Shown: piece after piece, positions 8,785 through 38,500 of the stretch | Layout of the letters: every line of letters begins with the position of its first letter | Position numbering within the stretch: the stretch's first letter is position 1 | Source: Verrucomicrobiota bacterium | Lineage (GTDB): Bacteria > Verrucomicrobiota > Verrucomicrobiia > Opitutales > Opitutaceae | Assembly: GCA_028293545.1 (NCBI GenBank) | Contig: JAQGOP010000053.1 | Location: 186,001-250,000 of the forward strand | Length of the DNA stretch: 64,000 nt | Direction of reading: 5' to 3' | Notes under the pieces: generated by a model | The model's input: the letters and a program-made list of their open reading frames with translations, nothing else | The model's database searches: none | What the model was told of the DNA's origin: nothing | Made by a program: the position numbers and the translations under genes

Positions 8785-8916
8785 CTTGGAGGCGCTGGCC
8801 GGACTCGGCTGTCTAGCGCTGTCCGCACACCAAAAATGGCCGATTCTCAGAGGCAACCAAGCGCAATTCGTCAGCGCTCCCGAACTGCTGCTTTTAACTT
8901 TTTGGTGTCCGTTTAG
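8785..8916. repeat. Direct repeat copy A with tRNA-Cys-3'-end-like segment (candidate att site)
   Basis: The copy begins CTTGGAGGCGCTGGCCGGA and includes TCAGAGGCAACCAAGC at 8847 and TTGGTGTCCG at 8902. The same three blocks recur at 11704, 11768 and 11822. Offsets from the first block are 62 and 119 bases here versus 64 and 120 there. On the minus strand the first block resembles the 3' end of tRNA-Cys (CGCGCCTCCA end), a common integration target. No tRNA body is present. The surrounding 392-base gap (8586-8977) holds no convincing gene. Confidence 0.65.
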
Positions 8917-8977
8917 CAGCGTCGGATGACCGAAGATCCCCATTGTTCCGAAATCCCGACTTGGGCACGATCTGCGC

Positions 8978-9544
8978 GTGAACATTGACCTCGAACTTTT
9001 CCTAAAGTCTGCTGGCGCTATTGCGTTGGTTTTGCTCGGTAAGTACAGCGACCGCTGGTTTGAAAAGAAGCCGAAGCTAATAATCTACCTTAGTCATTCT
9101 TCGGCTTTTGTGCTGCGCAACGTAAACCCTGCGAACGCTCAAATCCACACGCACGCAATCATCGTACGTAACACCGGTCGCCTAGCTGCAAAAAATATTC
9201 GTCTTGGTCACTATACTTTGCCGGAGAATTATCAGGTCTTTCCTGCGATAGAGCATAGAGTTGAACGGGTGGATGACAGGATACATGAGATAATTATCCC
9301 GGTTCTGGTACCGAACGAGCAAATCACCGTTACTTACCTGTATCCTAGCACACTGCTCTGGAGCCAAATTCACGCGTACAGCAAGTCCGATGATGGGTTT
9401 ATGCGAGAGATTAAGGTTCTTCCTACACCACAAGCTTCTCAATGGCTCGTGCGTTCGATCCAGTTTCTGACGTTTTTGGGCTCTGCACTATTGGTCTATT
9501 GGGCCTTCTCGTTCGGAATTTGGGCTATCGGCCGCATGGCTTAA
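8978..9544 (+). CDS. Uncharacterised two-span membrane protein, first gene of cassette
   Basis: This 188-residue protein starts at GTG 8978. A hydrophobic segment near the N-terminus (SAGAIALVLLGKY) is followed by a polar, beta-rich middle region with 'THAIIVRNTGRLAAKNIRLGHY'. That pattern resembles immunoglobulin-like extracellular or periplasmic domains. A second membrane segment lies near the C-terminus (FLTFLGSALLVYWAFSFGIW). I do not recognise a family. It is followed after 202 bases by a phosphorylase-like gene in the same direction. Base composition is visibly more AT-rich than the flanks, consistent with recent acquisition. A membrane effector or anchor for the downstream proteins is conceivable but is inference only. 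Confidence 0.65.
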   Translation: MNIDLELFLKSAGAIALVLLGKYSDRWFEKKPKLIIYLSHSSAFVLRNVNPANAQIHTHAIIVRNTGRLAAKNIRLGHYTLPENYQVFPAIEHRVERVDDRIHEIIIPVLVPNEQITVTYLYPSTLLWSQIHAYSKSDDGFMREIKVLPTPQASQWLVRSIQFLTFLGSALLVYWAFSFGIWAIGRMA

Positions 9545-9746
9545 TATGGAGTATGCTCGTGCTTCCATTTGCAGGGGTATTTTTAGTCGAGTACCGCGAC
9601 CAATTCGAATAACCTCGTATTATTCGGTGCGCGAATTGTCGGCTAGACACGCAGACAGGTTGTAGGCCTCTAGCCTCACGTGTAGCCGTTGACTTGGGAC
9701 GCCTCTGCCCATTGAACTTGGGCGCATCCGTCCGAGAGAAATACAA

Positions 9747-10883
9747 ATGTCCTCTGAGCTTCCAGCGTTATTGGCAGCGGTTAAGCCGAGTGAACGTACC
9801 GAAAAATACGCGGTTTTGGCGGCGTTGTTCGCACTGAATGCACATAAGGCTGCTGTGACAGCGAAACAGGTGCGCAAATCGCTAATACTCCAGCTTCGCG
9901 GGAAGACTCCGGCGAACATTCCGGATTGCTTGAGAAAATGTAACGGCTTGGTCGAAGCTAGCGACGAAGGGCCTCCAATTCAGTGGAAGCTAACTGAAAA
10001 GGGGATTGAGAGGCTGCGCGAGCTGAGCAGTTTACCACTGAAGAGCGAAGGTGCTACGTCCTACGAAAGTGACATTGGAATCGTATGTGCTCTTGAGGAC
10101 CCGGAGTTCATAGCGGTAATGGAAGCATTTGGCGGACGTGGGGCTTGGTCAGAGGCGGGATCAAATCGATACACTCACCTTTATCGCACGACCGAACTGG
10201 AAACTAAGAGCGGAAAGAAGCTCAAGGTTGTGGGGACTACGGCATCGTCAATGGGCCTTACTGCTGCGGCCATTGTCACCACTCAGCTTGTTCTGCAATT
10301 TCGTCCAAGAATGGTGGTAATGATCGGTATTGCAGCGGGCACACGAGCCGGTGGAAAACAATTCGGCGATGTTTTGGTAGCCGATCCCAGTGTGGACTAC
10401 AACTCCGGTAAAGTTGTGAGTTCCGAAGGTATCCGTGAATTTTTGCCGGACCCATATCCTCTCGGACTGAACCCGCGGCTTCGGAGCGTTCTCTTACGTT
10501 ATCATGCGAAGCATCCCGCATGGACCGCCATCCGGTCACGATGGAAAGGAGGAGTTCCCAATGGCAACAATCGCCTATTCATTGGTCCAGTCGGTGCTGC
10601 CGACCAAGTGATCGATGATGAATCACGGGTAACTGAAATTCGAAAAAATTGGCGCAAACTAATCGGTGTCGAAATGGAAACCTATGCGGTATACCGTGCA
10701 TGCCATGAAGCTCCGGAACCTAAGCCGCGCTACGTGTCGTTTAAGGCTGTTTGCGATTTCGCGGCCGAAAAAGGCGACTCATGGCAATTGTTCGCCGCCT
10801 TTATGGCGGCCGAATTCTCGGCGACGTTTTTGTCAACTGAATGGGATGCCTTGTGGCCGTCATCGGGAGAAGCAAGCTTATGA
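9747..10883 (+). CDS. Winged-helix-like plus nucleoside phosphorylase (PNP/MTAN)-like protein
   Basis: This is a 378-residue protein. Residues 1-105 look like a helical DNA-binding or winged-helix region (VTAKQVRKSLILQL, then a 'WKLTEKGIERL' wing-type end). Residues 110-365 are a PNP/MTAN-type nucleosidase fold: 'DIGIVCALEDPEF' opens it, 'GIAAGTRAGGKQFGDVLVAD' follows, then 'GVEMETYAVY' (Glu309, Glu311) and 'FKAVCDFAAEKGD' (Asp337), in the usual catalytic order. Fused phosphorylase-fold proteins of this kind are found among bacterial immunity effectors, where they attack nucleotides. They are also found in purine salvage. The regulatory-type N-terminus, the AT-rich context and an ATGA overlap with the next gene favour the immunity reading. 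Direct evidence for that is absent. Confidence 0.75.
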   Translation: MSSELPALLAAVKPSERTEKYAVLAALFALNAHKAAVTAKQVRKSLILQLRGKTPANIPDCLRKCNGLVEASDEGPPIQWKLTEKGIERLRELSSLPLKSEGATSYESDIGIVCALEDPEFIAVMEAFGGRGAWSEAGSNRYTHLYRTTELETKSGKKLKVVGTTASSMGLTAAAIVTTQLVLQFRPRMVVMIGIAAGTRAGGKQFGDVLVADPSVDYNSGKVVSSEGIREFLPDPYPLGLNPRLRSVLLRYHAKHPAWTAIRSRWKGGVPNGNNRLFIGPVGAADQVIDDESRVTEIRKNWRKLIGVEMETYAVYRACHEAPEPKPRYVSFKAVCDFAAEKGDSWQLFAAFMAAEFSATFLSTEWDALWPSSGEASL

Positions 10884-11533
10884 AAATCAAAAAACCGTTA
10901 GTGAACGATGCTGATACAGAGATTGCAGCGATCAGCACAGTGTACTCCGCGCTAAAGTTTCTCGCTAAGCCGGCGCAAATTCGCGTTCTGGAATACGTCC
11001 AGCAGAAGTTAGATCTCAAGGTCAGCATTTCGGGCTCAGCGCAGGACGGTGAGCGTCATGAGGAATCCCGAGAGCAAGAGAAACCAGCGCGCGAATTAGA
11101 TGCAGTAGACGAAACGCCAAGTGACACCGGCAGCGACGCCGATGACTGGAATAGTGTAAGCGCAGTTGCTCGAAGATGGGTGCAACGGAGTGGGCTTGAT
11201 CGACAATTCCTCTCGACGATATTCAGCATTGGGGGTGAAGAAATTGACCTGATTGCGAAGGCGATTCCAGGGACCTCGAAGCGCCAGAGAATGCGCGAGG
11301 TAATTCTCTTGAAAGGCATAGCCGCTTATTTGGCCAGTGGAGTTGCCCGGGTAAGCCACGAGGCGGCAAAAGAGGCATGTTCCCACTACAATGCCTTTGA
11401 TAGCGCAAACTTCGCTAGGCATTTGAAGGGGTTTGCATCCGAGATTGGGGGCGCAAAGGAATCAGGCTACACGCTGACTCCGCGAGGGCTCGCTAGTGGC
11501 GTGGAGGTTATTACTGCAATGAAGGGGAAGTGA
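10880..11533 (+). CDS. Uncharacterised partner protein of the PNP-like gene
   Basis: This 217-residue protein is translationally coupled to the gene before it (ATGA at 10880). It has two conserved-looking parts joined by an acidic, low-complexity linker (residues about 55-95, rich in Glu, Asp and Ser). The N-terminal helix pair reads 'ISTVYSALKFLAKPAQIRVLEYVQQKL', a pattern I have seen only in short uncharacterised island proteins. The C-terminal 120 residues are helical, with 'RQRMREVILLKGIAAYLASG' and 'NFARHLKGFASEIGG' ending in a winged-helix-like 'YTLTPRGLASG'. It could be a sensor or adaptor for the phosphorylase-like protein. No enzyme motif is visible. Confidence 0.6.
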   Translation: MKIKKPLVNDADTEIAAISTVYSALKFLAKPAQIRVLEYVQQKLDLKVSISGSAQDGERHEESREQEKPARELDAVDETPSDTGSDADDWNSVSAVARRWVQRSGLDRQFLSTIFSIGGEEIDLIAKAIPGTSKRQRMREVILLKGIAAYLASGVARVSHEAAKEACSHYNAFDSANFARHLKGFASEIGGAKESGYTLTPRGLASGVEVITAMKGK

Positions 11534-11703
11534 CCTGTTGTTGACCTGAGCCGTTTTCAGCTAGTGCCTGGAAAGACCAGTCGCAGTGAGTTAGGGAGTA
11601 GCAGGAGGATTACGCCTTTTAGCCCAAGCTCTAACGGAGCGATGATTTTGGCGTCCTGTTTCGGATCCAAAGACTCCAGTCTCCATGCCGTAGAGCAGAA
11701 AAA

Positions 11704-11845
11704 CTTGGAGGCGCGGGCCGGAATCGACCGCCTATCATCGAGTTACGTAAGAAAACGTAGCATCATTTCAGAGGTATCCAAGCTAAAACTGTATAACCCG
11801 GCGTAATCTTTTCTAACCCGGTTGGTGTCCGTTTTGGTGTCCACA
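11704..11845. repeat. Direct repeat copy B with tRNA-Cys-3'-end-like segment (candidate att site)
   Basis: CTTGGAGGCGCGGGCCGGAAT at 11704 differs from copy A by one base in its first 18; over 23 bases two differ. TCAGAGGTATCCAAGC (11768) and TTGGTGTCCG (11822) follow at nearly the same spacing, plus one extra TTTTGGTGTCC. The minus-strand reading TCGATTCCGGCCCGCGCC plus TCCA is a near-exact tRNA-Cys T-arm and acceptor end with a damaged 5' T-stem. The gap 11534-11857 holds no gene that I can support. Together with copy A it brackets the three-gene cassette. Confidence 0.65.
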
Positions 11846-11857
11846 ATCGAGCTGTGT

Positions 11858-12578
11858 TTAAGCGAGATTTGTCCACCAAACGAGGCTCTCGTTTGGTTGT
11901 ACAAAAACGACCGCTTTAAGGCTCACAAAAGCGCGCGTTTGGACGATATATTCGATCACGTCTGCCGCTGGAAAACGAAACGCGACGGGACCGTGCAGCA
12001 GGAGTACCTCGCTCTTCCGGACTTCGTCGTTTTTTCGCAATCGCTGTGATCGCGGCGTCATAGAGAGCCGTAATTTCCAACGTGACGTCTCCTCCGATCG
12101 GCTCGACGTGGCTGGGCACGTTTCGCATGAACCGTTCGATTAGGTCCGGGCTACAGTATCCTTCATGAAACGTTGGCAACGGCGCCGGTCCTCGGACCTT
12201 TGACATCGCTATTATCATCGCGGCTTGGTCCGGCGGAAAATCTGTCACCTCGATCGCCAGGCGATCATCTTCGATTGCGAGGAGAATATCAGGCGGGTCC
12301 TCGCCTTCAGCCAGCATCTCAATCGAAAGCCTATCGCCAATTTTCCTACCAGTCAGGCGCTCCACGGCTGGCTTGAACGAAGCCCGCTGGGCGAACGCAC
12401 GAAACGCATTCAGTTCCTTCTGCTGTTTATTGGAAAGTCTAGCCGCGTCGTCGGTCACCTCAACGGACTCAAAGGTTGCGTCTCCGACGAGCTGCCTAAA
12501 CGCATCGGCATCGTCCTTCTTGAGGCCGGCCGCACCTATGATTTTCCGCTGGATTGTTAAGGTGACTGAAGTGGACAT
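11858..12578 (-). pseudogene. PD-(D/E)XK-like hypothetical gene, frameshifted in an A6 tract
   Basis: Reading leftwards from the ATG at 12578 (MSTSVTLTIQRKIIGAAGLK), the first frame gives about 180 residues. It includes 'DPPDILLAIEDDRLAIEVTDF', which resembles a PD-(D/E)XK nuclease core with Thr in place of the usual Lys. After 'AAITAIAKK' that frame turns into low-quality Arg/Ser-rich sequence. The next frame instead gives sensible sequence to a stop at 11858 (HGPVAFRFPAADVIEYIVQT, ending QPNESLVWWTNLA). Removing one A from the six-A run (T's at 12030-12035) joins them as A-K-N-D-E-V. This could be a sequencing error, a true mutation or phase variation. Function is unknown. Confidence 0.55.
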
Positions 12579-12751
12579 GAAGCGGGCTGAGCATGGGGGG
12601 ACCCGCCACGACACTGTTTCGTTTTCTTATCCGGTGCGATCAGGAAGGTTTGGCGCCTTGGATTAGACTCAGTTCCACGTCGAAGGGAGCGCAACAAACG
12701 CCGAAGCAAGGTCGACTCCGGCGGGACGACACCGCATACGAAATCGAACCC

Positions 12752-14560
12752 GTGAAGACGCCGAACCCCAGTCAGACCCGCATCGCTGAAGCGATGCGCG
12801 AAAGCGTCGTCAGTGTGCTACGCACGGAGGGGATTTACGGCCGCGGTTACCGTTTTCGGGACGCACGAGAGTATCTGTCGCAGACCAATTTGTTCACCGC
12901 GGTCCAGAGTATGGCGTTGATCAACGCCGTGGCGTCGCGACTGCAGCGAATCGGCGACTATTCGAAGAAGGAGAATCTCGCGCACCTGGGCCGGCTGTAT
13001 CGATTTCTCTTTCACGTCACGAAGCGACCCACGGTCGTGAATTTCACGGTGAAGGAACTGCTTCAGAAATTCGGGCCGTTCATCCCGCTCTCGCCTTGGG
13101 CGTGTGCCGCGATGACCGATGCCTGCCTCCGGTTCTGTCACCTGACGTCGGGACGGCATTTTTTCCCGCCGAGCGAGGTGAGGTATTTTTCGAAGATCTT
13201 GGTGTCGTTCCAAACGGACCTGGCGCCGGATCACTCCGGGTTGCCAGATTTCGAAAATATGCCCGATGCGCTTTTCTCCGAATTCGTGCGCAACCAGCTG
13301 CGCGCGAATTCCCAGCGGCTCACGAAGGAAGATCACAGCCGGCTCTACGCCTTGTTTTCGGTGCCGGAGGTGGGTGAGGTCCTTCAACTGCGGGCGAAGA
13401 CCAGCGCGGCCGAGTGGTTCAAAACGCAGACGGGAATGAACGCCGCCGACTATCGCACCATCCTGTTTGCGCTCATGGCGACGACGATGGAATTCACTCT
13501 CGACCAGCCCAACTTCGACAAACTGACCTTCGATTTGACCGCGTTCCTGGGGGGCGTGCTTCCGGAGGCTCAGGGCCACTTCATCCGATTGATCGAACTC
13601 GCGTTGATCGATATTCCGGCGGTGAGGGCGGAGCGCCCGCCGGCGAATTGGAAGGAAGCGGTGTACGGCGCCAATTCCCTGGTCAGGCGTCAGCTCGTGC
13701 GCCTCGGCGAAACGCGGTTTGTGATTTTGCACGAGGATCTTTTCGTCGAGCGATATTTCCGCGGTATGGTGCACGTCCTGGACGACCTCGCCCGGCAGCC
13801 GGGATCGGGCCGCGATTGGCAAACGACCCGATCCGAATTCGGCTACCTGTTCGAGGGGTATGTGCGCTGGTGGCTCCGCGGCCTCCTTGGCGAAAAGTCC
13901 ATCACGGTTTTCGGCGTCGAGTTGCAGAAGGGCAAGGGCGAGACGGATGCGATCGTGATCGTGGGTCGGACGGCGTTGGTCTTCGAGTTCAACCACCATC
14001 CCCTCAGCCGCGTGGAGGCGTTTGAAGCGACGCCAGCGAAGCTGGCCGCGATCGTCTCTTCCGATCTCAAAAAAGCCTTCCGTGCGGCCCGCATAGTCGC
14101 CGCCGAGGGCCTGGTCGTCGGAGGAAAACGCCATGACGTGGATCGGATTCTTCCCGTGGTGGTCCTGCCTGATGCTCTCCCAATCAGTGACCTCACGGCC
14201 ATCCGGTTTCGGCAGGAGTTGTTGAAGACCGTTCCGGACCTGCAGGGAGACGGGACAAAAATATGCGCCGCTCAAATTATGAGCCAGACACACCTCGAAC
14301 TCTACGACAAGGTGTGGAATCTGCCGGCGGAATGCGCTGAGCTGGTCGAGTACCTCGCCAAACGCGCATCCCTTGAACCTGCTCGCTTCGGGCCGGTCGT
14401 GTTCGACCGCCAACAGCTCAGCTTGAAATACATCGGAAATACCTGGTCGAAATTGCACGAAGCCTGCGACCGCGAGTTCGCCACTATCGGCCCCACGTGG
14501 TTCAAGGCGTTGAGTCCCTCCGGGCCCGAGGAAGCGCTCCGCCCCGCGTCGAGGGGGTAG
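12752..14560 (+). CDS. Large protein with C-terminal PD-(D/E)XK nuclease-like domain
   Basis: About 602 residues are read from GTG 12752. The frame opens at 12593, but residues before 'MKTPNPSQTRIAEAMRE' do not look like protein, so the start is uncertain. The first two thirds are mostly helical with no recognised motif. The last third holds a restriction-endonuclease-like signature: 'FGYLFEGYVRWWLRGLL' followed by 'KGKGETDAIVIVGRTALVFEFNHH'. This has the Glu-Asp...Glu pattern of PD-(D/E)XK enzymes with Asn where Lys is common. It is divergent to the frameshifted gene. Its final codons lie within the 14534 repeat. A nuclease role in defence is inferred from fold and context only. Confidence 0.65.
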   Translation: MKTPNPSQTRIAEAMRESVVSVLRTEGIYGRGYRFRDAREYLSQTNLFTAVQSMALINAVASRLQRIGDYSKKENLAHLGRLYRFLFHVTKRPTVVNFTVKELLQKFGPFIPLSPWACAAMTDACLRFCHLTSGRHFFPPSEVRYFSKILVSFQTDLAPDHSGLPDFENMPDALFSEFVRNQLRANSQRLTKEDHSRLYALFSVPEVGEVLQLRAKTSAAEWFKTQTGMNAADYRTILFALMATTMEFTLDQPNFDKLTFDLTAFLGGVLPEAQGHFIRLIELALIDIPAVRAERPPANWKEAVYGANSLVRRQLVRLGETRFVILHEDLFVERYFRGMVHVLDDLARQPGSGRDWQTTRSEFGYLFEGYVRWWLRGLLGEKSITVFGVELQKGKGETDAIVIVGRTALVFEFNHHPLSRVEAFEATPAKLAAIVSSDLKKAFRAARIVAAEGLVVGGKRHDVDRILPVVVLPDALPISDLTAIRFRQELLKTVPDLQGDGTKICAAQIMSQTHLELYDKVWNLPAECAELVEYLAKRASLEPARFGPVVFDRQQLSLKYIGNTWSKLHEACDREFATIGPTWFKALSPSGPEEALRPASRG

Positions 14561-14639
14561 GGTTCGCTTGCGCTGTGCAGTGCAACGCCCGTGGTTTCGC
14601 ACCCGGTCGTCGAAGCCCCGACCTCACCCGAGCAAGGAC
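14534..14639. repeat. ~106 bp direct repeat, copy 1
   Basis: The segment from GCTCCGCCCCGCGTCGAGGG to CGAGCAAGGAC is repeated in the same orientation at 18538-18643. Shared blocks include GTCGAGGGGGTA, CGCCCGTGGTTTCGCACCC and AAGGAC. By eye roughly three quarters of positions agree. It overlaps the last codons of the upstream nuclease-like gene and then fills the intergenic space. With copy 2 it brackets four genes (14757-18505), suggesting a cassette boundary or a spread intergenic repeat. Confidence 0.6.
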
Positions 14640-14756
14640 CTGAAACGCCGACGGACGATATCCAACCCCGCTCGAGGCGACCACGGCCGGTTCGGGATGC
14701 CAAGAGAAAGGACACCGTGCCGCGTCAGGATACTTGAGGACGAAGGTGGATCTGGC

Positions 14757-15938
14757 ATGGTCGGTCGCATGTCGCTGCAACGCATTCCGCTCACGAGCCT
14801 GACCGAAGCTCATCTCCAGGCTCTGGTCAGTGACGGCGCGCGGGAGAGTCGTGATCTTGAATTCAAACGCGAGTGGCGCTTGGCGGATGATCCCGACAAA
14901 CGGGAGTTTCTGTTCGACGTGTCTTCCTTCGCGAACGCGGGCGGGGGCGACGTCGTATACGGAATCGACGAGGAAGCAGGTGCCGCTTCGAGCGTCCCTG
15001 GACTGGCCGGGCTGGATTTCGACGGCGAGCAGCGTCGGGCTGACGCCTTGGTGATGAATTGGATCGAACCCCGTCCGCGCGGGCTCGCTTACCAGACGGT
15101 GCCTCTCGCCTCCGGCCGAACGGCGCTCGTCGTCCGAATCTCCCGCAGCTGGTCAGGACCGCATCGGGTCACGTACGGGGGAGCCAATCGGTTTTACTCG
15201 CGCAATTCCGCCAACAAATACCAGTTGGATGTGAACGAGCTCCGCCAAGCCTTCGGTGCGGCGTCGAGCGCGCGCGATCGGCTTCGTGATTTTCGCTTGG
15301 AGCGCATCGACCGGATCGGGCGAGGTGAGGTAGAGACGCCGCTTCAGGGCCGCAACGCCGTTGTCATTCACCTGATGCCGCTCGCTCCTCCGTCATCGTA
15401 TGATCCAAAAGCTTTGTTGCGCCTCGGCGCCGAGACCTTTCCGCCGATGGGGGAACTGCACAGCGTGGGCCCGCAAATCAACTTCGAGAGCTGCATGTTC
15501 AAGAGCACCTCCAACACGGGAGAGTCGTATACCTACTCGCAGGTTTTCCGAAACGGCGCGGTCGAAGCGGTTCGCATGGGAGGAAGATCCGACGAGACGC
15601 AGATGATCTATCCCCGCTACGAGCACGATGTGCGGCCTGCCCTCCATCGCTATGCCACCGGCCTTTCGCTGATAGGTGTGCTGGCCCCGTGGCTCTTGGC
15701 TCTGAGCCATGTGAACGTGCGAGGGTTTCAGATGTGGGAGGCGCAGTCCGTGGACGCCTTCCGTCGCAGCGTGCCGATCGCGCGCGAGCATCTTCTGGTT
15801 CCGGAGGTGCTGATCGAACAAACGGATTTGGGCTCACTCGACCAGGCGTTGAAACAGGTGTTCGATCCCGTGTGGAACGCCTGCGGACGCCTCGGTTCGC
15901 CCCATTTCGCGGCTGACGGTTCGTGGAAGGAACAATAG
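14757..15938 (+). CDS. AlbA_2/Schlafen-type putative DNA/RNA-binding protein
   Basis: This is a 393-residue protein. Residues 10-150 match the AlbA_2 (Schlafen-related) domain: 'ESRDLEFKREWRLAD', 'FLFDVSSFANAGGGDVVYGI' and later 'RFYSRNSANKYQLDVNELRQAF'. This domain occurs in transcription factors and in nuclease-like defence proteins. In Schlafens the acidic pair at the start (E..LEFK) contributes to RNase activity, and both Glu residues are present here. The C-terminal 230 residues have no recognised motif. I take the ATG at 14757 because GAAGGTGG sits 7 bases upstream; ATG 14769 is an alternative. A defence role is inferred from neighbourhood. Confidence 0.75.
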   Translation: MVGRMSLQRIPLTSLTEAHLQALVSDGARESRDLEFKREWRLADDPDKREFLFDVSSFANAGGGDVVYGIDEEAGAASSVPGLAGLDFDGEQRRADALVMNWIEPRPRGLAYQTVPLASGRTALVVRISRSWSGPHRVTYGGANRFYSRNSANKYQLDVNELRQAFGAASSARDRLRDFRLERIDRIGRGEVETPLQGRNAVVIHLMPLAPPSSYDPKALLRLGAETFPPMGELHSVGPQINFESCMFKSTSNTGESYTYSQVFRNGAVEAVRMGGRSDETQMIYPRYEHDVRPALHRYATGLSLIGVLAPWLLALSHVNVRGFQMWEAQSVDAFRRSVPIAREHLLVPEVLIEQTDLGSLDQALKQVFDPVWNACGRLGSPHFAADGSWKEQ

Positions 15939-16218
15939 ATTTCGCGGTTGCCTGAAGTCTCCGAAGGTGAGCGACGGTGCATTTCTACGCGGCGCAACAA
16001 TCCCATGGGTCTTTGGTCCCAACCTAGCATGGCAGACTCCAAGGAAATTGCCCCGGTCGAAGTCACCGCCCTCCTTGACCACTTCGGCCGCGAGTACGTT
16101 TGCAAGTGCCCCGACCTAAAGGACCTCGTGGTTTGGAATATCGGCAGAAGCCCGAGGGATCTTGCGTCGTCCGGCGGGCAGGTCGTGACTTTTCCGCGAG
16201 GTAGAGTAGGATCGGCAA

Positions 16219-17037
16219 ATGGGAACAAGCCTACCACGCGACCTCGGCGGCCACTGGGTCGGAACCATGGCGGGAACCAACCAGGGCGGCATTTCGCTCG
16301 AACTGGTCCAGTCCGGAAATCAAATCGCGGGAACGGCATCGATGAACGAACCGCAGATTGGAACGTACGAATATGTCGTGAAAGGCGCAATCAGTCCTCT
16401 TTTGCCGGATGGGACCATCAACTTTTTGATGACGCTTGATCCAAGCGAGAGCCGCGGCATCGCCCTCGGAGTAGTACGCGCGGAAGGAAAAGTACTGTCG
16501 GACCGCCAACTCGAAGGACGCTGGCGCTCGAAGATCGGGACGAAGGGCATATTTTCACTCAGACGGGAGCTGTCCACGGCCCTGAAGTCCCCTTCGGAAA
16601 TATTCGTCGTCCACGGCCACGACGAAGCCGCGAAGATGAAAGTCGCCCGCTGCCTCGAACGGCTGGGTCTGAAACCGATTCTCCTCAGCGAGCAGCCGGA
16701 TCAAGGTCGGACGATCATTGAAAAGTTTGAACAGCACGCCGGCACTGCCGGATTCGCCGTCATCCTTTTCACCGCGGATGATACGGGCGGATCGGCGCGA
16801 CCAGGCGCCAAGGTAAGCCCGCGGGCGCGCCAGAATGTGATCCTCGAAATGGGCTATTTTATTGGGAAACTGGGCCGCTCAAAAGTATGTACATTATATT
16901 CGCCCGGCGTCGAATTGCCTTCGGACCTCTTCGGGGTCGTCTACACGCCGCTGGACGCGCATGGTGGATGGGAGGCCCGCTTGGGGCGCGAATTGCGCGC
17001 AGCGGGCTACGAGGTGGACATGAACAAGCTTTTCTGA
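16219..17037 (+). CDS. TIR-like (PF10137-type) protein with N-terminal beta domain
   Basis: Residues 126-272 match the predicted nucleotide-binding TIR-like family used as a CBASS/STING-type effector. Landmarks are 'IFVVHGHDEAAKMKVARCLERL', 'EQPDQGRTIIEKFE', 'RARQNVILEMGYFIGKLGR' and 'LPSDLFGVVYTPLD'. In related TIRs such domains cleave NAD+; Glu168 in 'IIEKF' is the likely catalytic residue. Residues 8-118 form a separate beta-rich domain (HWVGTMAGTNQGGISLELVQ, GNQIAGTAS, ending EGRWRSKIGTKG), reminiscent of small beta-barrel ligand binders. It is not STING or SAVED that I can recognise. No cyclase gene is adjacent. A ParB-like gene starts 17 bases after the stop. Confidence 0.8.
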   Translation: MGTSLPRDLGGHWVGTMAGTNQGGISLELVQSGNQIAGTASMNEPQIGTYEYVVKGAISPLLPDGTINFLMTLDPSESRGIALGVVRAEGKVLSDRQLEGRWRSKIGTKGIFSLRRELSTALKSPSEIFVVHGHDEAAKMKVARCLERLGLKPILLSEQPDQGRTIIEKFEQHAGTAGFAVILFTADDTGGSARPGAKVSPRARQNVILEMGYFIGKLGRSKVCTLYSPGVELPSDLFGVVYTPLDAHGGWEARLGRELRAAGYEVDMNKLF

Positions 17038-17054
17038 GCGGTTGAAAATCCGGG

Positions 17055-17459
17055 ATGAAGTCGATATCGATCGATCAACTTAGCCCGGGCGAAAACGTTC
17101 TCTCTGCGGAGAAAGTACAAAAGTATCGCGCGGCTTTGGCTGCAGGTCGAGATATCGACCCCATCACAGTTATTGAGCTGGACGGCTGTTTGATCGTGCG
17201 AGACGGCAATAACCGCGTGCGGGCGTTCATTGAACATTTTCGAGCGGCAAACCGGCCTTGGCCGGAGATCCCGGCAGTTCTCAGCGATCGACCGTTGGGC
17301 GGTACTGCCTCGTCCATGCTTCCCCTAACCGCGCGTTACTATGGAAACGGCGTCCCTGCGTTTCTAAGCCTGCCGTGTGTGTCCGCCGCAGAGTATGTAG
17401 TGCGGCAGGCAGTGATCGGTCGTAAAATCTTCCTGGGAGACGGAACCGAAATACCTTGA
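17055..17459 (+). CDS. Small ParB-like nuclease/NTPase-fold protein
   Basis: This 134-residue protein has a ParB N-terminal-domain pattern: 'ISIDQLSPGENVLSAEKVQKYRAAL', then 'IDPITVIELDGCLIVRDGNNRVRAF'. The 'RDGNNRVRA' box corresponds to the conserved GxxR-type box that binds CTP in ParB proteins and ATP or phosphate in sulfiredoxin-like relatives. There is no DNA-binding helix-turn-helix or dimerisation domain, so it is not a partition protein. It lies 17 bases behind the TIR gene and is probably co-transcribed with it. A nucleotide-binding helper role is possible. The last 40 residues are unremarkable. Confidence 0.65.
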   Translation: MKSISIDQLSPGENVLSAEKVQKYRAALAAGRDIDPITVIELDGCLIVRDGNNRVRAFIEHFRAANRPWPEIPAVLSDRPLGGTASSMLPLTARYYGNGVPAFLSLPCVSAAEYVVRQAVIGRKIFLGDGTEIP

Positions 17460-17611
17460 GGCCCCCTTTCGGAATGACGGCGAACCGTAGGCGTGCCGCG
17501 GTTCTCGCCCGCATCGTCACTCGATGGCCCACCCAAGGGCAGAGGACTCATGTTGCGTGAGATTCGCCCAATTGCGCTTGGTGCGTCGGCAAATCCGACG
17601 TAGCACAGATC

Positions 17612-18505
17612 ATGGGCTTCTTAGGATATAGCCGAGAGAGCGGTGCCATCTATGTCGGAGAAAGCACCTCTTTCGGCTATCGGACGCCGCAGGATCCCTT
17701 CCTGACGCCCTTCCGTTTGAGCCGCAACGGGGAGATCCGGGCGGACGAAGCCAATGATATGACGTTTCATTTAGCGAAACGGGTATTCCGGGAAATTTAT
17801 TTCGACCCCGTGACCCGGGTGCGGCGGGGCGACGTCTTCCTGATGGAAGGCAATCAGCCGGGGCGTTGGCTCGCGCAAGATCCCTATCGGAAGGATTTGG
17901 GCAACGCGTTCAAGGCGGAGGGGAGTCGCTATCACCTCGAGTTGATCACTTATCAGCACGATCGCCTCGCGGAGCTTGCGCATCAGCTGGGTAAGCCTGC
18001 GTGTCCGCGCGTGATCCTCGGCCGAGCGGACTATTCGACGTTCTGGAAAATCATCAGCGTGGAGGCATCGGTGAGCAATGCGCCGGTGCTTACGTTGAAA
18101 GCCGAGCAATACTTTGGGGACATGCCGGAAATTATTTCCCGAAATGTCCCCGAGCGCATTCGACCGAACCTGGAAACGTTGCTCGATGACATTGGCTCCA
18201 GCATCCATCGCCTGAGTCCCGTGGCCGTCATTGACCGCTGTCGCGACTGCCTGTCCTTAATCTTTGGTGAGATGGTCCAGCAGCCCGGCGCCGATTTGGG
18301 CGCGGCGATCGCCGCCTGGGTCAAGCTCAAGGAAGGCAAGGAGGACGTACGCAGCCGTTGTGGTTGGATCGTCGCTCGATTCCATTCGCGAGGAAAACCG
18401 AACGAACAATTGGTGAAGAAGCTGCGGCCCCTGACGGAAAGCGACGCGCAAATGGCGGTGCGGTGCCTATGGACCGTGCTCGTGGAGTTCGGCTGGGCTC
18501 GCTGA
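17612..18505 (+). CDS. Uncharacterised 297-residue island protein
   Basis: I do not recognise the family. The N-terminal third is mixed ('GAIYVGESTSFGYRTPQDPF', 'FHLAKRVFREIYFDPVTRVRRGDVFLMEGNQPGRWLAQDPYR'). The middle contains 'PRVILGRADYSTFWKIISVEASV', and the C-terminal 100 residues are helical. No membrane segment, signal peptide or catalytic motif is evident. It is 152 bases downstream of the ParB-like gene and ends at the second copy of the 106 bp repeat, so it is the last gene of that bracketed group. Codon use looks like its neighbours. Confidence 0.55.
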   Translation: MGFLGYSRESGAIYVGESTSFGYRTPQDPFLTPFRLSRNGEIRADEANDMTFHLAKRVFREIYFDPVTRVRRGDVFLMEGNQPGRWLAQDPYRKDLGNAFKAEGSRYHLELITYQHDRLAELAHQLGKPACPRVILGRADYSTFWKIISVEASVSNAPVLTLKAEQYFGDMPEIISRNVPERIRPNLETLLDDIGSSIHRLSPVAVIDRCRDCLSLIFGEMVQQPGADLGAAIAAWVKLKEGKEDVRSRCGWIVARFHSRGKPNEQLVKKLRPLTESDAQMAVRCLWTVLVEFGWAR

Positions 18506-18537
18506 TCAACGTCATCTCCGCTGCAAGGGGTTCGAAA

Positions 18538-18643
18538 CCGTTCCGCTCCGTGTCGAGGGGGTATGGGTCGCCTCCGCAGGAAGTGCAGCGCCCGTGGTTT
18601 CGCACCCGCCGTTCGGAGCCTGGCGCTCCCCCGAAGCAAGGAC
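18538..18643. repeat. ~106 bp direct repeat, copy 2
   Basis: This is the second, same-orientation copy of the 14534 repeat, from TTCCGCTCCGTGTCGAGGGG to CCGAAGCAAGGAC. It fills part of the 304-base gap 18506-18809. The rest of that gap is GC-rich and carries no gene that I can support. It sits 33 bases after the stop of the preceding gene, a location much like that of copy 1. Confidence 0.6.
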
Positions 18644-18809
18644 GCGAGGCTCGGCCCCGAGCCTCGACCCCTCCTCAAAGCCGCCGCAGCCGAGAGAGTC
18701 CTAGAGGGAAGGGGGCGGCAACTAGCTCCCGTGGAGACCCGGGATGCGGCCTCCTACGGTGCTGCTCGACGGTTGACCGCTACTCCCTTACTTGAGTCCA
18801 TAGCTATCG

Positions 18810-19610
18810 ATGGATTCGCCAGCAGCGATTTTCTTTTCTTGGCAATCGGACACCGCGAAAGAGACGAATCATCGCGCCTTCATTCGCCGGTGCTTGGAGT
18901 TGGCCACCAAGGAATTGAATGCCTCCGTCGAGATCGACGATGCCCTGCGGGTCGACGCAGGGATGGAAGGGATTCCTGGCACGCCAGAAGTCGCCGCCGC
19001 CATCTTCGAGAAGATTGCAGCCGCTTCCTTCTTTGTCGCGGACGTCACGCTGGTCGCCACGGGTAATTTTTCTCCGGAACGCCGCCAGCCAAATTCGAAC
19101 GTGTCCATCGAAATGGGTTTTGCCGCTGGGGTACTGGGATGGGACCGGGTCATCTGCATTATGGACGCGGCCTACGGGAAGCCGGAGCATCTCCCGTTCG
19201 ACCACCGCAATCGTCGTTTTCCTATTACGTACTCGAGTCGGGACGAGCCCGCCCCGGCCAAGCTTAAACTCACTAAAGCCCTCACCTCCGCGCTCGCCTT
19301 GGCCGAAACGCACGAGCTCAACAAGGTGGGTCGCGCAATTCGTCGGCTGGACGTGAATGCGCTTCGCTTGATCGCCGACTTTGGCCGCGAGGAATACTTT
19401 TCCGATCCGACCGGTTCAGGCAATCAAGTGGACTTGTACTATCAAAAAATCTTTCCCGTCGGCATCCCGCGTCTCCTCGACCTCGGCCTAATTTACGCCG
19501 ACGCGCAGCCCGCGACTAAGCTCTACGCCTACCATTGGACCTATCTCGGGAAGAAGGTCGTCCAGAAGTTGGATTTTCCGATTCAAGAGCCTGGTATCCT
19601 CTTCCTCTGA
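18810..19610 (+). CDS. TIR-like / nucleotide-hydrolase-fold protein
   Basis: This is a 266-residue protein. The first 160 residues follow a widespread defence-island pattern: 'AAIFFSWQSDTAKETNHRAFIRRCLE', 'DAGMEGIPGTPEVAAAIFEKIAAASFFVADVTLV', 'RQPNSNVSIEMGFAAGVLGWDRVICIMDAAYG' and 'LPFDHRNRRFPITY'. This is the flavodoxin-like TIR / deoxyribosyltransferase-like arrangement, with a conserved Glu in 'NVSIEMG'. Such proteins are predicted NAD+- or nucleotide-degrading effectors. The C-terminal 100 residues contain a helix-rich region that may be the sensor. It is convergent with the next gene, 9 bases apart. Confidence 0.7.
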   Translation: MDSPAAIFFSWQSDTAKETNHRAFIRRCLELATKELNASVEIDDALRVDAGMEGIPGTPEVAAAIFEKIAAASFFVADVTLVATGNFSPERRQPNSNVSIEMGFAAGVLGWDRVICIMDAAYGKPEHLPFDHRNRRFPITYSSRDEPAPAKLKLTKALTSALALAETHELNKVGRAIRRLDVNALRLIADFGREEYFSDPTGSGNQVDLYYQKIFPVGIPRLLDLGLIYADAQPATKLYAYHWTYLGKKVVQKLDFPIQEPGILFL

Positions 19611-19619
19611 GCGATCCAC

Positions 19620-21779
19620 TCACGTTCGCTTTTCGTCTTCGGGGTTCTCGCTCTGAGCTTCCAATAAATCCATCATCGCTTGGAAATCCTGAAAGCCTTT
19701 GACGACCGATTGGGCCTCCTCAGCGGCCAGCCCGATCGTCTCCAGGATTTGAGCAGCCGTCACCGGCTCCGATTCCCACTCGGGAATGACTAGACCTGAC
19801 CGATAACTGGTCTCACGAAAGTTCGCGCCCACGACCCGTCCGACCCGCGCTATTCTCGTTGCCGTGGGGCTCGTCAACTCGCGCAAAAAATCTTGCACGG
19901 TCGGTTGGCTTCCCGCCCACAATTTTATGCGATGGCGCCGAGTGACAGTTCGACCGTTTTTCAAAGTTCGGGGAGCCTCAATCGAGATGTGCCCGTCGAT
20001 AAAAAAGCGGGCAAGCGACGACGCGTCGTACGAGTAAACATCGTAGCCCGGCAACATGCGTCCCAGCGCCCATGGCGTCGCATACAGAACGCACCCGATT
20101 ACCCGATCCCATACCACTGTCTCGCCAAACGCCCGCCGCACAATTTCTGGATCGGCTAAAAAATGAGTAATATTGCGAACGACCTGGAGGCTCGCTCCCA
20201 AAAAATCCTCGCAGAAGTGCGACAGAGTCGGGAGGTACCCGAAGGGCAGCCCTCGATTCTTGCATTCAACGAGGATCAGCGTGCGCTCCCAGATGACCGC
20301 CGCGTCGCAGTCGTACGACGTCCCGTCCACCTTGTAGGCGATGGATTTGACGGGGAGATCCAGCCGTTGAAAAAGGCCCCGCACCGCGTCTTCGAATCTC
20401 TCGCCGCGTTTCGAAAGAGCGGCCTTAAACCGGGACACCCGCGACATCACAATCGTCGAGAGCACGGGACTGCGGTAACCGGGTGCAAAGAAGAGGAGTT
20501 CGTCGCCCTTCATTCGGACAAACGGCTCGTCCATCAGATCACGAGAACCCTTGGCGAAGGTCGTATGCTTTAAGAAGCGCTCCGCCCATTCCCGTTTCAT
20601 TCCCACCGACTGGAGGCCTTCGAAAACTTGGGTCCGTGACAAAATCACAGTCTCAAGGATCGGCGTTCCGTCCCGAGTCTGCGCGCAATACCGGCTCACA
20701 TACGCATAACCCCGGAGCCACGCCTTGACCGGCAAGTCACCAACGTGCTCGGCCTCTTCCGCCATGGGTAAGAACAGCGTGTCGCTCAAGTACTCGTACG
20801 CGACTGCTTCCTCCGCCGAGATGAAATTGTCCGGACCCGGCAGCCCCAGGGTGGGATCATTCGGGAGCTTGTACGCATCTGCAGCCTTCGGTTCGAGCAG
20901 CCTCAGCCGCTGCAGGTTCGCTACAAATCTCTGCTCCATTCGGAGAACGGCTAAAAAATCGCTCAGCTCCCAGTGGGTGGGCGGACCAAATTCTAGGACG
21001 TCAAAGAGAATAGGTTCAGGATGATTCGCAAACTTCAGATCCTGCTGCTTGCGCTCGACCGTCGCGCCGAAGTACCGAACCCGTTGCCATCCTTTCTCCA
21101 AATCCTGCCAGGCCAGGCTAAGATCGTGGAGTCGACTCGCCTCATTCATGATGGCCAGGTCCACCGCCACGCGCTGCGGGATGACAAGCTCGCCCGTCGC
21201 GGCCTCAAACCAACGATGCTCGTAACCCAGCATCGCTAAAATCGAACCCACGACCTCGGTCGCTCCCCAGACCACGCCGTCGACGCTCACGTTCGGCCCG
21301 GTCTCATTTTCAATTGTCGGACGCCTAAATCCTAGGGTCGAGCCCGTCGCCGGCCGCTGCTCCTCCATTTGCCGGAGCGCCTGCCGGATTGCCGCCGAGC
21401 CAAATTCCACGGCGGCCCACACCTGCACTTCCACGGGTGATTGAGAGATGGGGAGCCCTTTCAACGAATGAAGGATTTCGTGGTAGGAAGATTGGACTAA
21501 CGTCGCCTGTTTCAGATGGTCGACCAACGCCGCAATCGCTTCCGGAAAACCTTTGATGTAGTCGTGGACCACGTCGGCCACGCGCGCTCTTCGCTTGTAA
21601 GCCGACGCGTCGGGATGACGGACGACGGCGCAGCCGCAACGGGCCAATTCGGCGACGCAGGAATTCGCATCGAGCGCGTCGGGAGCCTGTTCCCGCCCCA
21701 GGATTTTTTGAACCCGGTCGGCGTCTAATTTGAGCAGCGCCTGTTTCAGCTGCTCTCGATTGAAGCCAGGTTTGTCCAC
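19620..21779 (-). CDS. Large protein with C-terminal PD-(D/E)XK nuclease-like domain
   Basis: This is a 719-residue protein. The N-terminal 450 residues are mainly helical and unrecognised. A nuclease core follows: 'RGERFEDAVRGLFQRL', then 'YKVDGTSYDCDAAVIWERTLILVECKNRGLPFG', which gives Asp and Glu-x-Lys (ECKN) in the canonical PD-(D/E)XK spacing. The overall plan resembles the protein at 12752-14560 (long helical part, late nuclease core), but the sequences are not obviously related. It is the second gene of a minus-strand pair with a GIY-YIG gene, 15 bases apart. A restriction-type defence role is plausible; what triggers it is unknown. Confidence 0.7.
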   Translation of the reverse strand: MDKPGFNREQLKQALLKLDADRVQKILGREQAPDALDANSCVAELARCGCAVVRHPDASAYKRRARVADVVHDYIKGFPEAIAALVDHLKQATLVQSSYHEILHSLKGLPISQSPVEVQVWAAVEFGSAAIRQALRQMEEQRPATGSTLGFRRPTIENETGPNVSVDGVVWGATEVVGSILAMLGYEHRWFEAATGELVIPQRVAVDLAIMNEASRLHDLSLAWQDLEKGWQRVRYFGATVERKQQDLKFANHPEPILFDVLEFGPPTHWELSDFLAVLRMEQRFVANLQRLRLLEPKAADAYKLPNDPTLGLPGPDNFISAEEAVAYEYLSDTLFLPMAEEAEHVGDLPVKAWLRGYAYVSRYCAQTRDGTPILETVILSRTQVFEGLQSVGMKREWAERFLKHTTFAKGSRDLMDEPFVRMKGDELLFFAPGYRSPVLSTIVMSRVSRFKAALSKRGERFEDAVRGLFQRLDLPVKSIAYKVDGTSYDCDAAVIWERTLILVECKNRGLPFGYLPTLSHFCEDFLGASLQVVRNITHFLADPEIVRRAFGETVVWDRVIGCVLYATPWALGRMLPGYDVYSYDASSLARFFIDGHISIEAPRTLKNGRTVTRRHRIKLWAGSQPTVQDFLRELTSPTATRIARVGRVVGANFRETSYRSGLVIPEWESEPVTAAQILETIGLAAEEAQSVVKGFQDFQAMMDLLEAQSENPEDEKRT

Positions 21780-21794
21780 GGAGCACGCCTTTGC

Positions 21795-22610
21795 TCAATT
21801 GGAGTTGTAGCCGAACCCCCGCGACTTGAGCGCATTTTTCCAATGCGATTCACGCGTCAGCACTTTTTCCTTCGGCTCCATCACGTCGCAGATTTCCAAA
21901 ATCGAAAATTGAAAATGCGTGACCCGCTCCAGACCCACCTCTGCGACCAGAGCCTTGAGCTCCACATTGCCCCCGTGCTGGGAAGCGACATAGCCCGCCC
22001 AACGTCCCCAGATGCCTTCGATGCCGTAGGCACTCCCCACGTAATGTTTGCCGTTCAACGTGTCGGTCAAGAGATACACCCCCGCGACGCTTTTTAAGGC
22101 CCCGCGCCACGACGCCGTGCCCTGAGTCACGATCCGCTTCAGTTGTGCGAACGACAGCAGGACCGACGAAAACCCGGGGAATTCGGCCAAGGTCATCTTC
22201 TCCGGCAATATTTCCGCGATCGTCAATTGGTCGCCAAATTTCTTGCCTAGAAGATAAGGCGCCCGAAACAACTTTCCGTAGCGGACGATCACTCGGCCAG
22301 CCAGGTGCTCGAGGCCCGTCACCTCGGTCGTCGAATACCCCCACCACGACTTCGTCCCGTCGGTTTTCCGTTCGGCGCCTTCAATCTTCCACACACCTGC
22401 AAACAGCCATCGCGGCGCATCGAGCGCGATCAGCGAGACGACATGATCGCAGGGAAAATTCTTCCGGGTCTGGTACTCCTGCCATTCCTTAAAGGTGCCG
22501 TCGAGATACGCCGCGAGCGGCGGAAACTTCGGATGCTTGGCGAAGTGAATCTTGAAATTCCCCAGCTCCACGTGAGCAAGGCGGATCAGGTCACAGAGGC
22601 GTAGGTCCAT
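21795..22610 (-). CDS. GIY-YIG nuclease-domain protein with N-terminal extension
   Basis: This is a 271-residue protein. The GIY-YIG core is in the C-terminal third: 'VAGVYLLTDTLNGKHYVGSAYGIEGIWGRWAGYV', with Tyr in both signature strands and an Arg in 'GRWAGY'; a Glu occurs further on. The N-terminal 170 residues form an unrecognised domain ('RWLFAGVWKIEG', 'GRVIVRYGKLFRAPYLLG'), possibly for target recognition. It leads the minus-strand pair with the PD-(D/E)XK gene; two different nuclease folds in one operon would be unusual for simple restriction. The start is the ATG at 22610, divergent from the type I operon. Confidence 0.78.
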   Translation of the reverse strand: MDLRLCDLIRLAHVELGNFKIHFAKHPKFPPLAAYLDGTFKEWQEYQTRKNFPCDHVVSLIALDAPRWLFAGVWKIEGAERKTDGTKSWWGYSTTEVTGLEHLAGRVIVRYGKLFRAPYLLGKKFGDQLTIAEILPEKMTLAEFPGFSSVLLSFAQLKRIVTQGTASWRGALKSVAGVYLLTDTLNGKHYVGSAYGIEGIWGRWAGYVASQHGGNVELKALVAEVGLERVTHFQFSILEICDVMEPKEKVLTRESHWKNALKSRGFGYNSN

Positions 22611-22847
22611 GGGGCGGGGTGGGGCGAACTTGGCAAAAGCCGTGATTCCCGCGAGGGCACAAGCGCGAGAGACGCTTTAGCAAAGTCAGGTCCTACACTC
22701 CTGCCTAGGATAATCCGAGCGACAGTCGCCAAGGTCTTGCGATTTTGTCCCGGCGACCCAAAAAAAGGAGCAGGTCAGCGCCCTTTTTCGAACGTTCGCT
22801 TCGGCAAGTGTCGCCAACTCTGATTCGATTCCTCACCGTCCATTCGA
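22611..22847. promoter_or_regulatory. Divergent promoter region between GIY-YIG pair and type I operon
   Basis: These 237 bases separate two divergent operons and must contain both promoters. I cannot assign -35/-10 boxes with confidence. CCAAAAAAAGGAGCAGG at about 22759 looks like a ribosome binding site but is too far upstream of the hsdM ATG (22848) to serve it. That ATG itself has no strong Shine-Dalgarno sequence. Confidence 0.35.
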
Positions 22848-24839: not shown

Positions 24840-26083
24840 AGCGTCCCACGCACAGAGCTTGGCCCACGGTGCGGCTAAAATATGTGGCGAGTATGAACGA
24901 CGAGGCCTTGGGCGAGGACACCCCGCCTGGTTTCGAGCTGGAGTACGTCGATATCGGAAATGTTGATTCTGAGGGACGGATTGGTACGGTCGCCAAATAT
25001 CGTTTTGAGGACGCTCCGAGTCGGGCACGACGAAAAGTGAGAAATGGCGACGTCATCATTTCAACCGTAAGAACCTACCTTCAGGCCATCGCGACCATTA
25101 AAGAGCCGACGGAGAATCTTATCGTCTCTACGGGCTTCGCTGTAGTTCGCCCGAAATCGGGTGCGCTTCTCTCAAGCTATTGCCAATTTGCCCTCCGGGA
25201 GCAGAGCTTTTTGGTTGAGATGATCAAACGCTCGGTGGGCATCAGTTATCCCACCATAAATATCTCGGATTTGGGCGATATTCGAATTGCTCTCCCGCCG
25301 CTCGAGGATCAGCGCAGTATCGCCCGTTTTCTCACGCGTGAAATCGCTGCGATCGATCGCTTGATCGCTGAAAAAGGAGCATTGAAGGACCTCCTTACGG
25401 AAAAACGAAAAGCGTTCGCAATGCACGCGGTGCAGGGCGGGGTTTGCTGCGGGCCGGCTCAAAAGGAGACTTGGTTTGGCATGGTCCCTAACCACTGGAA
25501 ATTGCGGCGCGCCGCTTACCTTTTCACCGAGCGCGACGAACGCAACGAACCGACGCTGCCGTTAATGGAGGTTTCAATCAACCACGGGGTGGTGGTGCGT
25601 CAGTATTCCGAAGACAAAATTGAGGGCACGGCTGCCGATTTCAATTCGTACAAGGTCGCGCGCCAGGGCGATATTGTGTTCAACAAAATGCGGATGTGGC
25701 AGGGGGCTGTCGGAGTTGCCCCGGTCGACGGGCTCACAAGCCCGGACTATGTGGTGGCCGTGCCTTCAGACGAGATCTTGCCCGAATTCGCCGGTCAGCT
25801 TTTTCGCACCGAACGGTTTAGCGCCGAATGTGCCCGTCGATCCAACGGAATTACTTGGGATCGTCTTCGACTCTACTGGGAAGGTTTTCGGGAGATTTTA
25901 ATCCCGGTGCCAACCATTGCGGAACAGCGTGCGATTGTCCGTCAAATCAACGTCGAAGCCAATAAGATCGATAAATTGTGGCAGTCGTCGAACGACACGG
26001 TCGTGCTGCTCCGCGAACGCCGGCGAGCGCTGATTTCGGAAGCCGTGAACGGAAAACTCGACGTGTCGCTGCATGAAAATTAA
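24836..26083 (+). CDS. hsdS: Type I restriction-modification specificity subunit
   Basis: This 415-residue protein starts at GTG 24836. It has two target-recognition domains, each ending in a conserved coiled-coil segment: 'LPPLEDQRSIARFLTREIAAIDRLIAEK' near residue 155 and 'PVPTIAEQRAIVRQINVEANKIDKLWQ' near residue 360. The two domains define the two halves of the bipartite recognition site. The start overlaps hsdM and the last 11 bases overlap the ATPase gene, so it is tightly coupled on both sides. Which sequence it recognises cannot be told here. Confidence 0.93.
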   Translation: MKRPTHRAWPTVRLKYVASMNDEALGEDTPPGFELEYVDIGNVDSEGRIGTVAKYRFEDAPSRARRKVRNGDVIISTVRTYLQAIATIKEPTENLIVSTGFAVVRPKSGALLSSYCQFALREQSFLVEMIKRSVGISYPTINISDLGDIRIALPPLEDQRSIARFLTREIAAIDRLIAEKGALKDLLTEKRKAFAMHAVQGGVCCGPAQKETWFGMVPNHWKLRRAAYLFTERDERNEPTLPLMEVSINHGVVVRQYSEDKIEGTAADFNSYKVARQGDIVFNKMRMWQGAVGVAPVDGLTSPDYVVAVPSDEILPEFAGQLFRTERFSAECARRSNGITWDRLRLYWEGFREILIPVPTIAEQRAIVRQINVEANKIDKLWQSSNDTVVLLRERRRALISEAVNGKLDVSLHEN

Positions 26084-31137: not shown

Positions 31138-31139
31138 AC

Positions 31140-31991: not shown

Positions 31992-32013
31992 ATGGTCCGA
32001 GGCCTGAATCGGC

Positions 32014-32889: not shown

Positions 32890-32892
32890 GGA

Positions 32893-35312: not shown

Positions 35313-35320
35313 GGGAGGAA

Positions 35321-35803: not shown

Positions 35804-35988
35804 CGCCCGAGCCCGTCAGATTCCGCGCTTTATGCCGCACGCGCGAAGTGGCTATTTCGGTTGTTTTATCTCGTTCGAATCGAATCTACTAAATTTGGAC
35901 CGGCGTCACAAAGCGTCCGCATCGCTTGGGCGCGCTAGCCGCAGCTGGACGTCGCACGCCTTAGCCGCCAGCGTCTCCATTTCCGTCC

Positions 35989-36864: not shown

Positions 36865-36965
36865 CCGCTTCACCGCCAGCGTAAGGCGATTTTTTCCAGC
36901 GGCCATCGATCCAGATATTCAATCGCGGGGCGTTGTAGACACTCCCAGAAATCCGCCACCGCCAA

Positions 36966-37363: not shown

Positions 37364-37378
37364 GGGTCGTGGCGGCGA

Positions 37379-38248: not shown

Positions 38249-38252
38249 GTGC

Positions 38253-38466: not shown

Positions 38467-38500
38467 AAAATTCATCGGGATCTGCTGGCTCCGCCTTCCG

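Follow-up and report, generated by a model that had tools for sequence, protein, structure and literature searches.

Cis-mobilizable elements (CIMEs) have been described as elements without integration and transfer genes that keep both attachment (att) ends and lie in tandem with an element having such genes (PMC5704250). The ssrA islands of Dehalococcoides, as presented in one account, also stand in tandem, are bounded by repeats of the tmRNA gene end and have a serine recombinase as integrase; fifteen of them are without an integration module and are, according to their authors, possibly cis-mobilizable elements (PMC3146451). Here, we analyse a short three-gene cassette and its flanking repeats in a stretch of 64,000 nucleotides (hereafter the window) from a Verrucomicrobiota bacterium of the family Opitutaceae (assembly GCA_028293545.1, contig JAQGOP010000053.1, positions 186,001 to 250,000). 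The cassette occupies 8787-11706 of the window (2.92 kb), with a core-P site at its left end and a P'-core site at its right end, the core being a copy of the tRNA-Cys 3' end and P and P' the arms beside it. We consider it quite likely that this interval is an integrase-less islet, a CIME accreted to an integrative and conjugative element (ICE) at tRNA-Cys.

The cassette resembles a CIME in lacking such genes, in its two att ends and in its presumed tandem position. It differs in belonging to a tRNA-Cys family of Opitutaceae, in measuring only 2.9 kb and in a junction that keeps both arms. With the ssrA islands it shares the tandem arrangement of islands, some of them integrase-less, whereas the enzyme here is a tyrosine recombinase at tRNA-Cys. 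Integron cassette arrays consist of short units of about one gene in series, with one recombination site each; serial single-gene units with one site each are likewise present in another genome of the family (G162, in our numbering of family genomes), but the Opitutaceae sites are tRNA-derived. Among the matches listed in our literature search, no title gave an account of such tRNA-Cys islets in Opitutaceae.

A first-pass annotation of the window had noted three blocks recurring on both sides of 8978-11533 at nearly equal spacing, and both our alignment and our models confirmed them. The repeat search returned the outer pair, 8785-8815 and 11704-11734 (84% identity over 31 nt; spacing 2919), and a 13-nt block, TTGGTGTCCGTTT, at both 8902 and 11822 (spacing 2920); the middle block, TCAGAGG.A.CCAAGC, is visible in the pairwise alignment of the two sites. 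This alignment, which the annotation had proposed as a check against shuffled sequence, scored 68 for 8785-8923 against 11704-11841, far above the maximum of 52 among 2000 dinucleotide-preserving shuffles; 2971 random pairs of window segments reached at most 64. The motif TTGGTGTCC occurs four times in the window against 0.32 expected, and three of these copies lie inside the two repeat sites. A pattern made from the sequence of copy 2, with up to three mismatches, found no further place in the window (copy 1 differs by more). A core-P model from 16 sites of other genomes matched the two window sites at E=2.6e-27 and 1.5e-25 (the latter for core 1), and an arm-only model built without the window sites recovered the P arms right of core 2 and core 1 at E=2e-16 and 8.1e-18, respectively. 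As a control, neither the full core-P model nor the P' model gave a match at E≤0.05 in 637,168 bases of reversed sequence.

Read on the opposite strand, the first block is the 3' end of a tRNA-Cys. Copy 2 is identical at 22/22 bases to the tRNA-Cys of its own genome, so that the annotation had guessed the integration target correctly; copy 1 differs at 3/22 bases (manual count). The intact gene, for which the annotation had suggested a genome search, is located on a separate contig, C29 (24300-24374, minus strand). A search by sequence pattern was too strict and gave no match, and BLAST then led to the gene. Neither a tRNA nor any Rfam family was detected in the window, and a known RNA inside it was thus rejected. 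On its 3' side, the C29 tRNA-Cys is followed by two TTGGTGTCC motifs and then by integrase and conjugation genes. The tyrosine integrase (371 aa) has its start codon 174 nt from the core; its match to Pfam PF00589 stays under the cut-off (E=9e-4), and it matches a PHROG integrase family at 5e-14. The same element also has a relaxase of the TrwC type (E=4e-67); a TraG/TraC-like protein, with weak matches (2e-6, 3e-6), lies at a greater distance. Judged by its gene content, the C29 locus beside tRNA-Cys is an integrated conjugative element.

The right end of the cassette carries an arm of its own (Table 1). A P'+core model made only from the integrase-to-tRNA-Cys stretches of C29 and three other genomes (G059, G141 and G156), thus without window sequences and including about 30 nt of core, matched 11576-11727 at E=3e-26. 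As a single query without the core, P' alone still found G059 at 2e-15 and G141 at 5e-15, and BLAST with the window as sole query gave 79-80% identity to G141 and G059 over the P' stretch and core. With P' on its left and P on its right (P'-core-P), core 2 marks the junction of two elements in tandem. Core 1 is bordered by P on its right, and the P' model finds no match on its left. The annotation was thus right that the repeats flank the three-gene block, and overlooked the second arm left of copy 2.

Table 1. Features of the cassette and of the adjoining element (positions in the window).
Feature	Position	Strand	Basis
Core 1: tRNA-Cys 3'-end copy, 3/22 bases changed, outer left end of cassette	8787..8808	-	leave-out core-P model
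P arm of the cassette's left end, with TTGGTGTCCG	8831..8916	+	arm-only model without window sites
Gene 1: 188 aa, hydrophobic stretches close to either end (by eye), without family match	8978..9544	+	
Gene 2: 378 aa, PNP_UDP_1 domain at residues 110-345, PDC-M60C-like defence effector (predicted)	9747..10883	+	
Gene 3: 217 aa, ATG overlapping the gene 2 stop (alternative open start 10841), no family match above E=0.07	10880..11533	+	
P' arm: integrase-side end of a tRNA-Cys element, right end of cassette, no adjoining integrase	11576..11703	+	homology to integrase-tRNA spacers
Core 2: 22/22 identical to own tRNA-Cys 3' end, junction of cassette and ICE	11706..11727	-	identity to C29 tRNA-Cys
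P arm of the next element (ICE far end), TTGGTGTCC twice	11734..11844	+	arm-only model without window sites
Presumed left part of the ~90-kb ICE, continuing via C22:263266 and C29:1 to tRNA-Cys at C29:24300	11706..64000		C45 collinearity

By sequence, both att ends are thus kept in the cassette as putative sites, core-P at 8787-8916 and P'-core at 11576-11727. As the annotation had stated, no recombinase lies between the repeats: Pfam detected none, and tblastn with three related integrases covered 0/371 residues. Family searches gave no relaxase or type IV secretion system match among the three main genes (an origin of transfer was not searched for). The three-gene block, called AT-rich in the annotation, has 51.4% GC against 59.6% for the window. 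In related loci, the distance from integrase start to core is nearly constant (C29 174, G156 177, G228 176 and G131-2 176 nt; 182 nt in the diverged G131-3), and the 174-nt point in the window is 11533, the last base of gene 3, which therefore ends about where an integrase start would be expected. Because the P' arm of the window is one TTGGTGTCCG copy short of those in C29 and G156, the expected start may lie about 12 nt further right. The two descriptions offered by the annotation, a non-autonomous cassette and two stacked insertions, apply together, as indicated by the arms, the P'-core-P junction and the absent integrase.

Most likely, an ancestral tRNA-Cys element would have lost everything between its arms except the three cargo genes. 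Another element would then have integrated at the tRNA-proximal att site of the islet, producing a CIME-ICE tandem by accretion. Core 2 would accordingly serve two elements, the islet as its right end and an ICE of about 90 kb as its left; the integrase end of this ICE would lie at the intact tRNA-Cys. Since its own insertion enzyme is absent, the cassette most likely depends on the enzyme of this larger neighbour. Acting in trans, the resident integrase could recombine core 1 with core 2 to yield a 2,919-bp circle, or core 1 with the tRNA core to excise the islet jointly with the ICE.

This scheme connects the window to C29. C22, the contig carrying the window, ends at 263266 with pilus or type II secretion system (T2SS)-like genes, and we had taken this chromosomal-looking end to mean that the two contigs could not be joined. 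We dropped this view, as a third contig of the same genome, C45, is collinear with both contig ends: its 2899-10478 matches C29 from 7230 down to 487, and its 11032-21303 matches C22 from window coordinate 77077 down to 67059. Because C45 holds related genes of both ends in one run, we infer that the right end of C22 adjoins the left end of C29; the element would then span about 89.9 kb between core 2 and tRNA-Cys. The C45 genes form a second conjugation cluster in the genome (33-72% protein identity to those of C22/C29), and contig C39 holds a second LexA-ImuA-ImuB-DnaE2-like cluster (58-81% to window 44424-50244; gene names by look). Together, these two clusters hint at a second related element in the genome.

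Several observations weigh against the islet-ICE reading. The integrase of the second element, which begins with the P arm right of core 2, is on another contig, joined by synteny only. The link between C22 and C29 rests on a paralogous cluster in a draft genome that is 84% complete, and the two contig ends do not overlap cleanly: they match exactly over 29 nt (about 40 nt by eye) and differ beyond that. Composition is mixed along window coordinates 10,000-75,000: of 13 pieces of 5 kb, the ones within 10-45 and 55-65 kb are chromosome-like, the ones within 45-50 and 65-75 kb resemble the C29 element, and 50-55 kb is intermediate. The C29 element's own pieces vary in this score (25, 19, -2, 17, -7), and 1/56 chromosome pieces scores above 10. 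The cassette P' as a single query misses the resident C29 arm at E≤0.01 and reaches it at 7e-7 after one iteration. Since core 1 carries three changes, excision may be dead, and a faint score of the core-including P' model to the left of core 1 (E=0.011) would allow for a third, decayed element there.

A further point against it comes from relatives, in which we did not find an empty site. tRNA-Cys was present in 11 of 12 genus genomes, our own included (one as merely a 38-base piece); an oxidoreductase homologous to the C29 tRNA-Cys neighbour occurred at 10/10 congener loci, and integrase homologues at three of the ten (G141, G059 and G156), two of them broken. No congener open reading frame (ORF) tested on the 3' side of tRNA-Cys (at least 90 aa at E≤1e-25, or at least 150 aa at E≤1e-15) matches the cassette or its left flank; the region to the left of core 1 may therefore be a further island. 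Searches with GspE and DnaE2 in the genus did not yield island limits. Three G200 ORFs do have counterparts elsewhere in the window, a set of sigma factor-FecR-TonB type at 55.3-58.1 kb (30-43%).

The three cargo genes probably form a defence operon, in which a PNP-domain protein would cleave a nucleotide such as ATP. Gene 2 has its PNP_UDP_1 domain at E=5e-14 (Pfam) and matches PADLOC PDC-M60C over residues 102-363 (2e-61), with only the PNP part aligning; among PDB structures, it matches MTA/SAH (methylthioadenosine/S-adenosylhomocysteine) nucleosidases, at best at 2e-7. Its relatives are present on 32 plasmids. Aligned with plasmid proteins, gene 2 keeps the common EME and VCDFA motifs, and its N-terminal 100 residues align poorly. 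In 3/3 plasmids examined, a PDC-M60B protein gene lies directly upstream of the gene 2 relative, an arrangement that we take to be Detocs. Detocs is a DtcA-DtcB-DtcC operon, and PADLOC did not find this operon among the cassette genes. PNP domains and Detocs have been linked to ATP degradation (PMC10952713, PMC9966839). Gene 2 shares with these PNP ATP nucleosidase systems, Detocs and PDC-M60, the PNP domain and the conserved motifs; it differs in that the match to PDC-M60C is confined to the PNP part, and genes 1 and 3 match no family. For these two genes, the searches gave nothing beyond one PHROG at E=0.07 and no PADLOC match; gene 3 had no match among plasmids, and gene 2 none among phages or viral contigs. 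The annotation had considered that the three genes might lie in relatives without the repeats; gene 2 has relatives in 2/200 family genomes, its own included, thus in one of the 199 others, at 33% identity.

The same att sites recur in the family. Core-P sites were found in 24 of 252 family genomes at E≤1e-3, with stricter search filters by which weak matches were lost. The loci examined comprise 36 core-P sites in 24 genomes (E≤1e-3, more than 50 model positions) and 12 P' in 10 genomes (E≤1e-2), after removal of L131, L132 and L137, which repeat other loci; the models were partly trained on these sites, and the E-values are not independent. P' stands directly left of the core at 4/36 sites: the window, G142, G231 and a diverged subtype in G131. 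Many core-P sites lie near contig ends, where units cannot be delimited. An exact-pattern scan of named genomes returned 10 loci titled Opitutaceae, Opitutae, Opitutus or Verrucomicrobia, and viral contigs gave no match to the att pattern.

Both ends could be seen in 15 units. The integrase is intact in three (G131-2, G131-3 and G228), a remnant in two (G125 and G096) and undetected in ten (the window, G130, G131-1, three in G162, G142, G221, G200 and G199); the ICE of the window, with its intact integrase, would be a 16th unit if linked as we infer. The ten integrase-less units measure 658 to 7142 bp, and six of them, of 0.66-1.35 kb, have a single main gene. Not all ends are perfect: G142 has a partial, coreless left site, G221 has a diverged left core and neither tRNA nor P arm after its right core, and in G131-1 the right core is truncated. 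Outside the 15, integrase residues 36-62 abut 298-346 in G231, an internal deletion. At locus L189 of G162 (8424-10717; CAIOZY010000025.1), four core-P sites lie within 2.3 kb with one small gene between each pair, the genes in both orientations and sites 1/3 and 2/4 more alike (by eye). At locus L117 of G228 (6461-8373), a 2.3-kb element has an open integrase gene and a second integrase fragment.

It could be argued that these units are more than products of decay, and that many minimal, integrase-less Opitutaceae cassettes, made of core-P, one or few genes and with or without P', move repeatedly through double-stranded tRNA-derived sites with an integrase in trans. The 10/15 delimited units without integrase remnant would fit this proposal, as would the three consecutive units of G162 (0.66-0.76 kb, one main gene each) and the other compact ones in G131-1 (0.94 kb), G130 (1.26 kb, ending in tRNA-Cys itself) and G221 (1.35 kb). 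Cargo varies among the units: DUF1801, PNPOx_N and a weak cupin match in G162, a TauE gene in G130, an FRG gene in G221 and no family match in G131-1. On the other hand, movement was not observed and no cassette was seen in more than one place; the G162 and G131-1 units yielded no P', as decay would predict; and integrase pieces in G231, G125, G096 and G199 indicate that decay does occur. In addition, an attC-like folded site was rejected, as RNAalifold on an alignment of 18 core-P sites gave five pairs, none changed on both sides. We therefore regard repeated movement as rather unlikely. The broader idea of a non-integron gene-cassette system in Opitutaceae is likewise unlikely. In such a system, compact units with one to three genes, delimited by a tRNA-Cys-derived core and an arm (about 110 bp), would be moved in trans by the tyrosine integrases of ICEs in the same cell and would accumulate in tandem at tRNA-Cys, with defence genes among their cargo.

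Alternatively, the insertion could have occurred at a secondary, tRNA-Cys-like site on C22, unconnected with the C29 tRNA-Cys. C22 and C29 are separate contigs, and no tRNA lies between the window start and the right end of C22. This view is nevertheless improbable, given the 22/22 identity of core 2 to the tRNA, the C45 collinearity linking the contigs, and own-genome searches that show only the window's two P arms, while the C29 element needs one. The repeats might also be decayed remnants of older elements, with three ordinary chromosomal genes between them; core 1 is indeed diverged, and the sites differ at many positions outside the core. We find this very unlikely in view of the low GC of the three-gene stretch, the near absence of gene 2 relatives in the family genomes searched, the close packing of the genes against both arms and the defence-type cargo. 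Chance resemblance of two unrelated stretches, which short blocks might suggest, has almost no probability and was rejected, since the alignment exceeds the shuffles, the leave-out models recover both sites, and the P' homology and family-wide recurrence also contradict it.

Beyond the cassette, the window holds a second pair of diverged direct repeats at 14532-14631 and 18536-18634 (79-81% alike, spacing 4003-4004). The 4 kb between them encode a Schlafen AlbA_2 protein and a CAP12-type TIR protein. At E≤1e-3, the pair had no further copy in 459,783 own-genome bases (partly overlapping) or among 1,215,283 bases from other loci. A type I restriction-modification operon at 22848-31137 carries a PtuA/PtuB (Septu-like) pair between its specificity and restriction genes, and a 1271-aa protein at 50295-54110 matches PADLOC PD-Lambda-4_A (E=1e-67). 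At 32014-35312, a large serine recombinase (513 aa) lies beside a RepB/ParB-type protein (Pfam) and a similar-looking ORF (32014-32889, by look), possibly another element nested in the ICE.

Altogether, these findings suggest that a small gene block without mobility genes may ride on a family of mobile elements by means of its landing sites alone. The same sites recur in an environmental bacterial family, sometimes with a single gene between them, which makes movement in trans directly testable. Likewise, the arm models may serve as a simple finder of element ends and of their cargo in Opitutaceae, including PNP-domain proteins.

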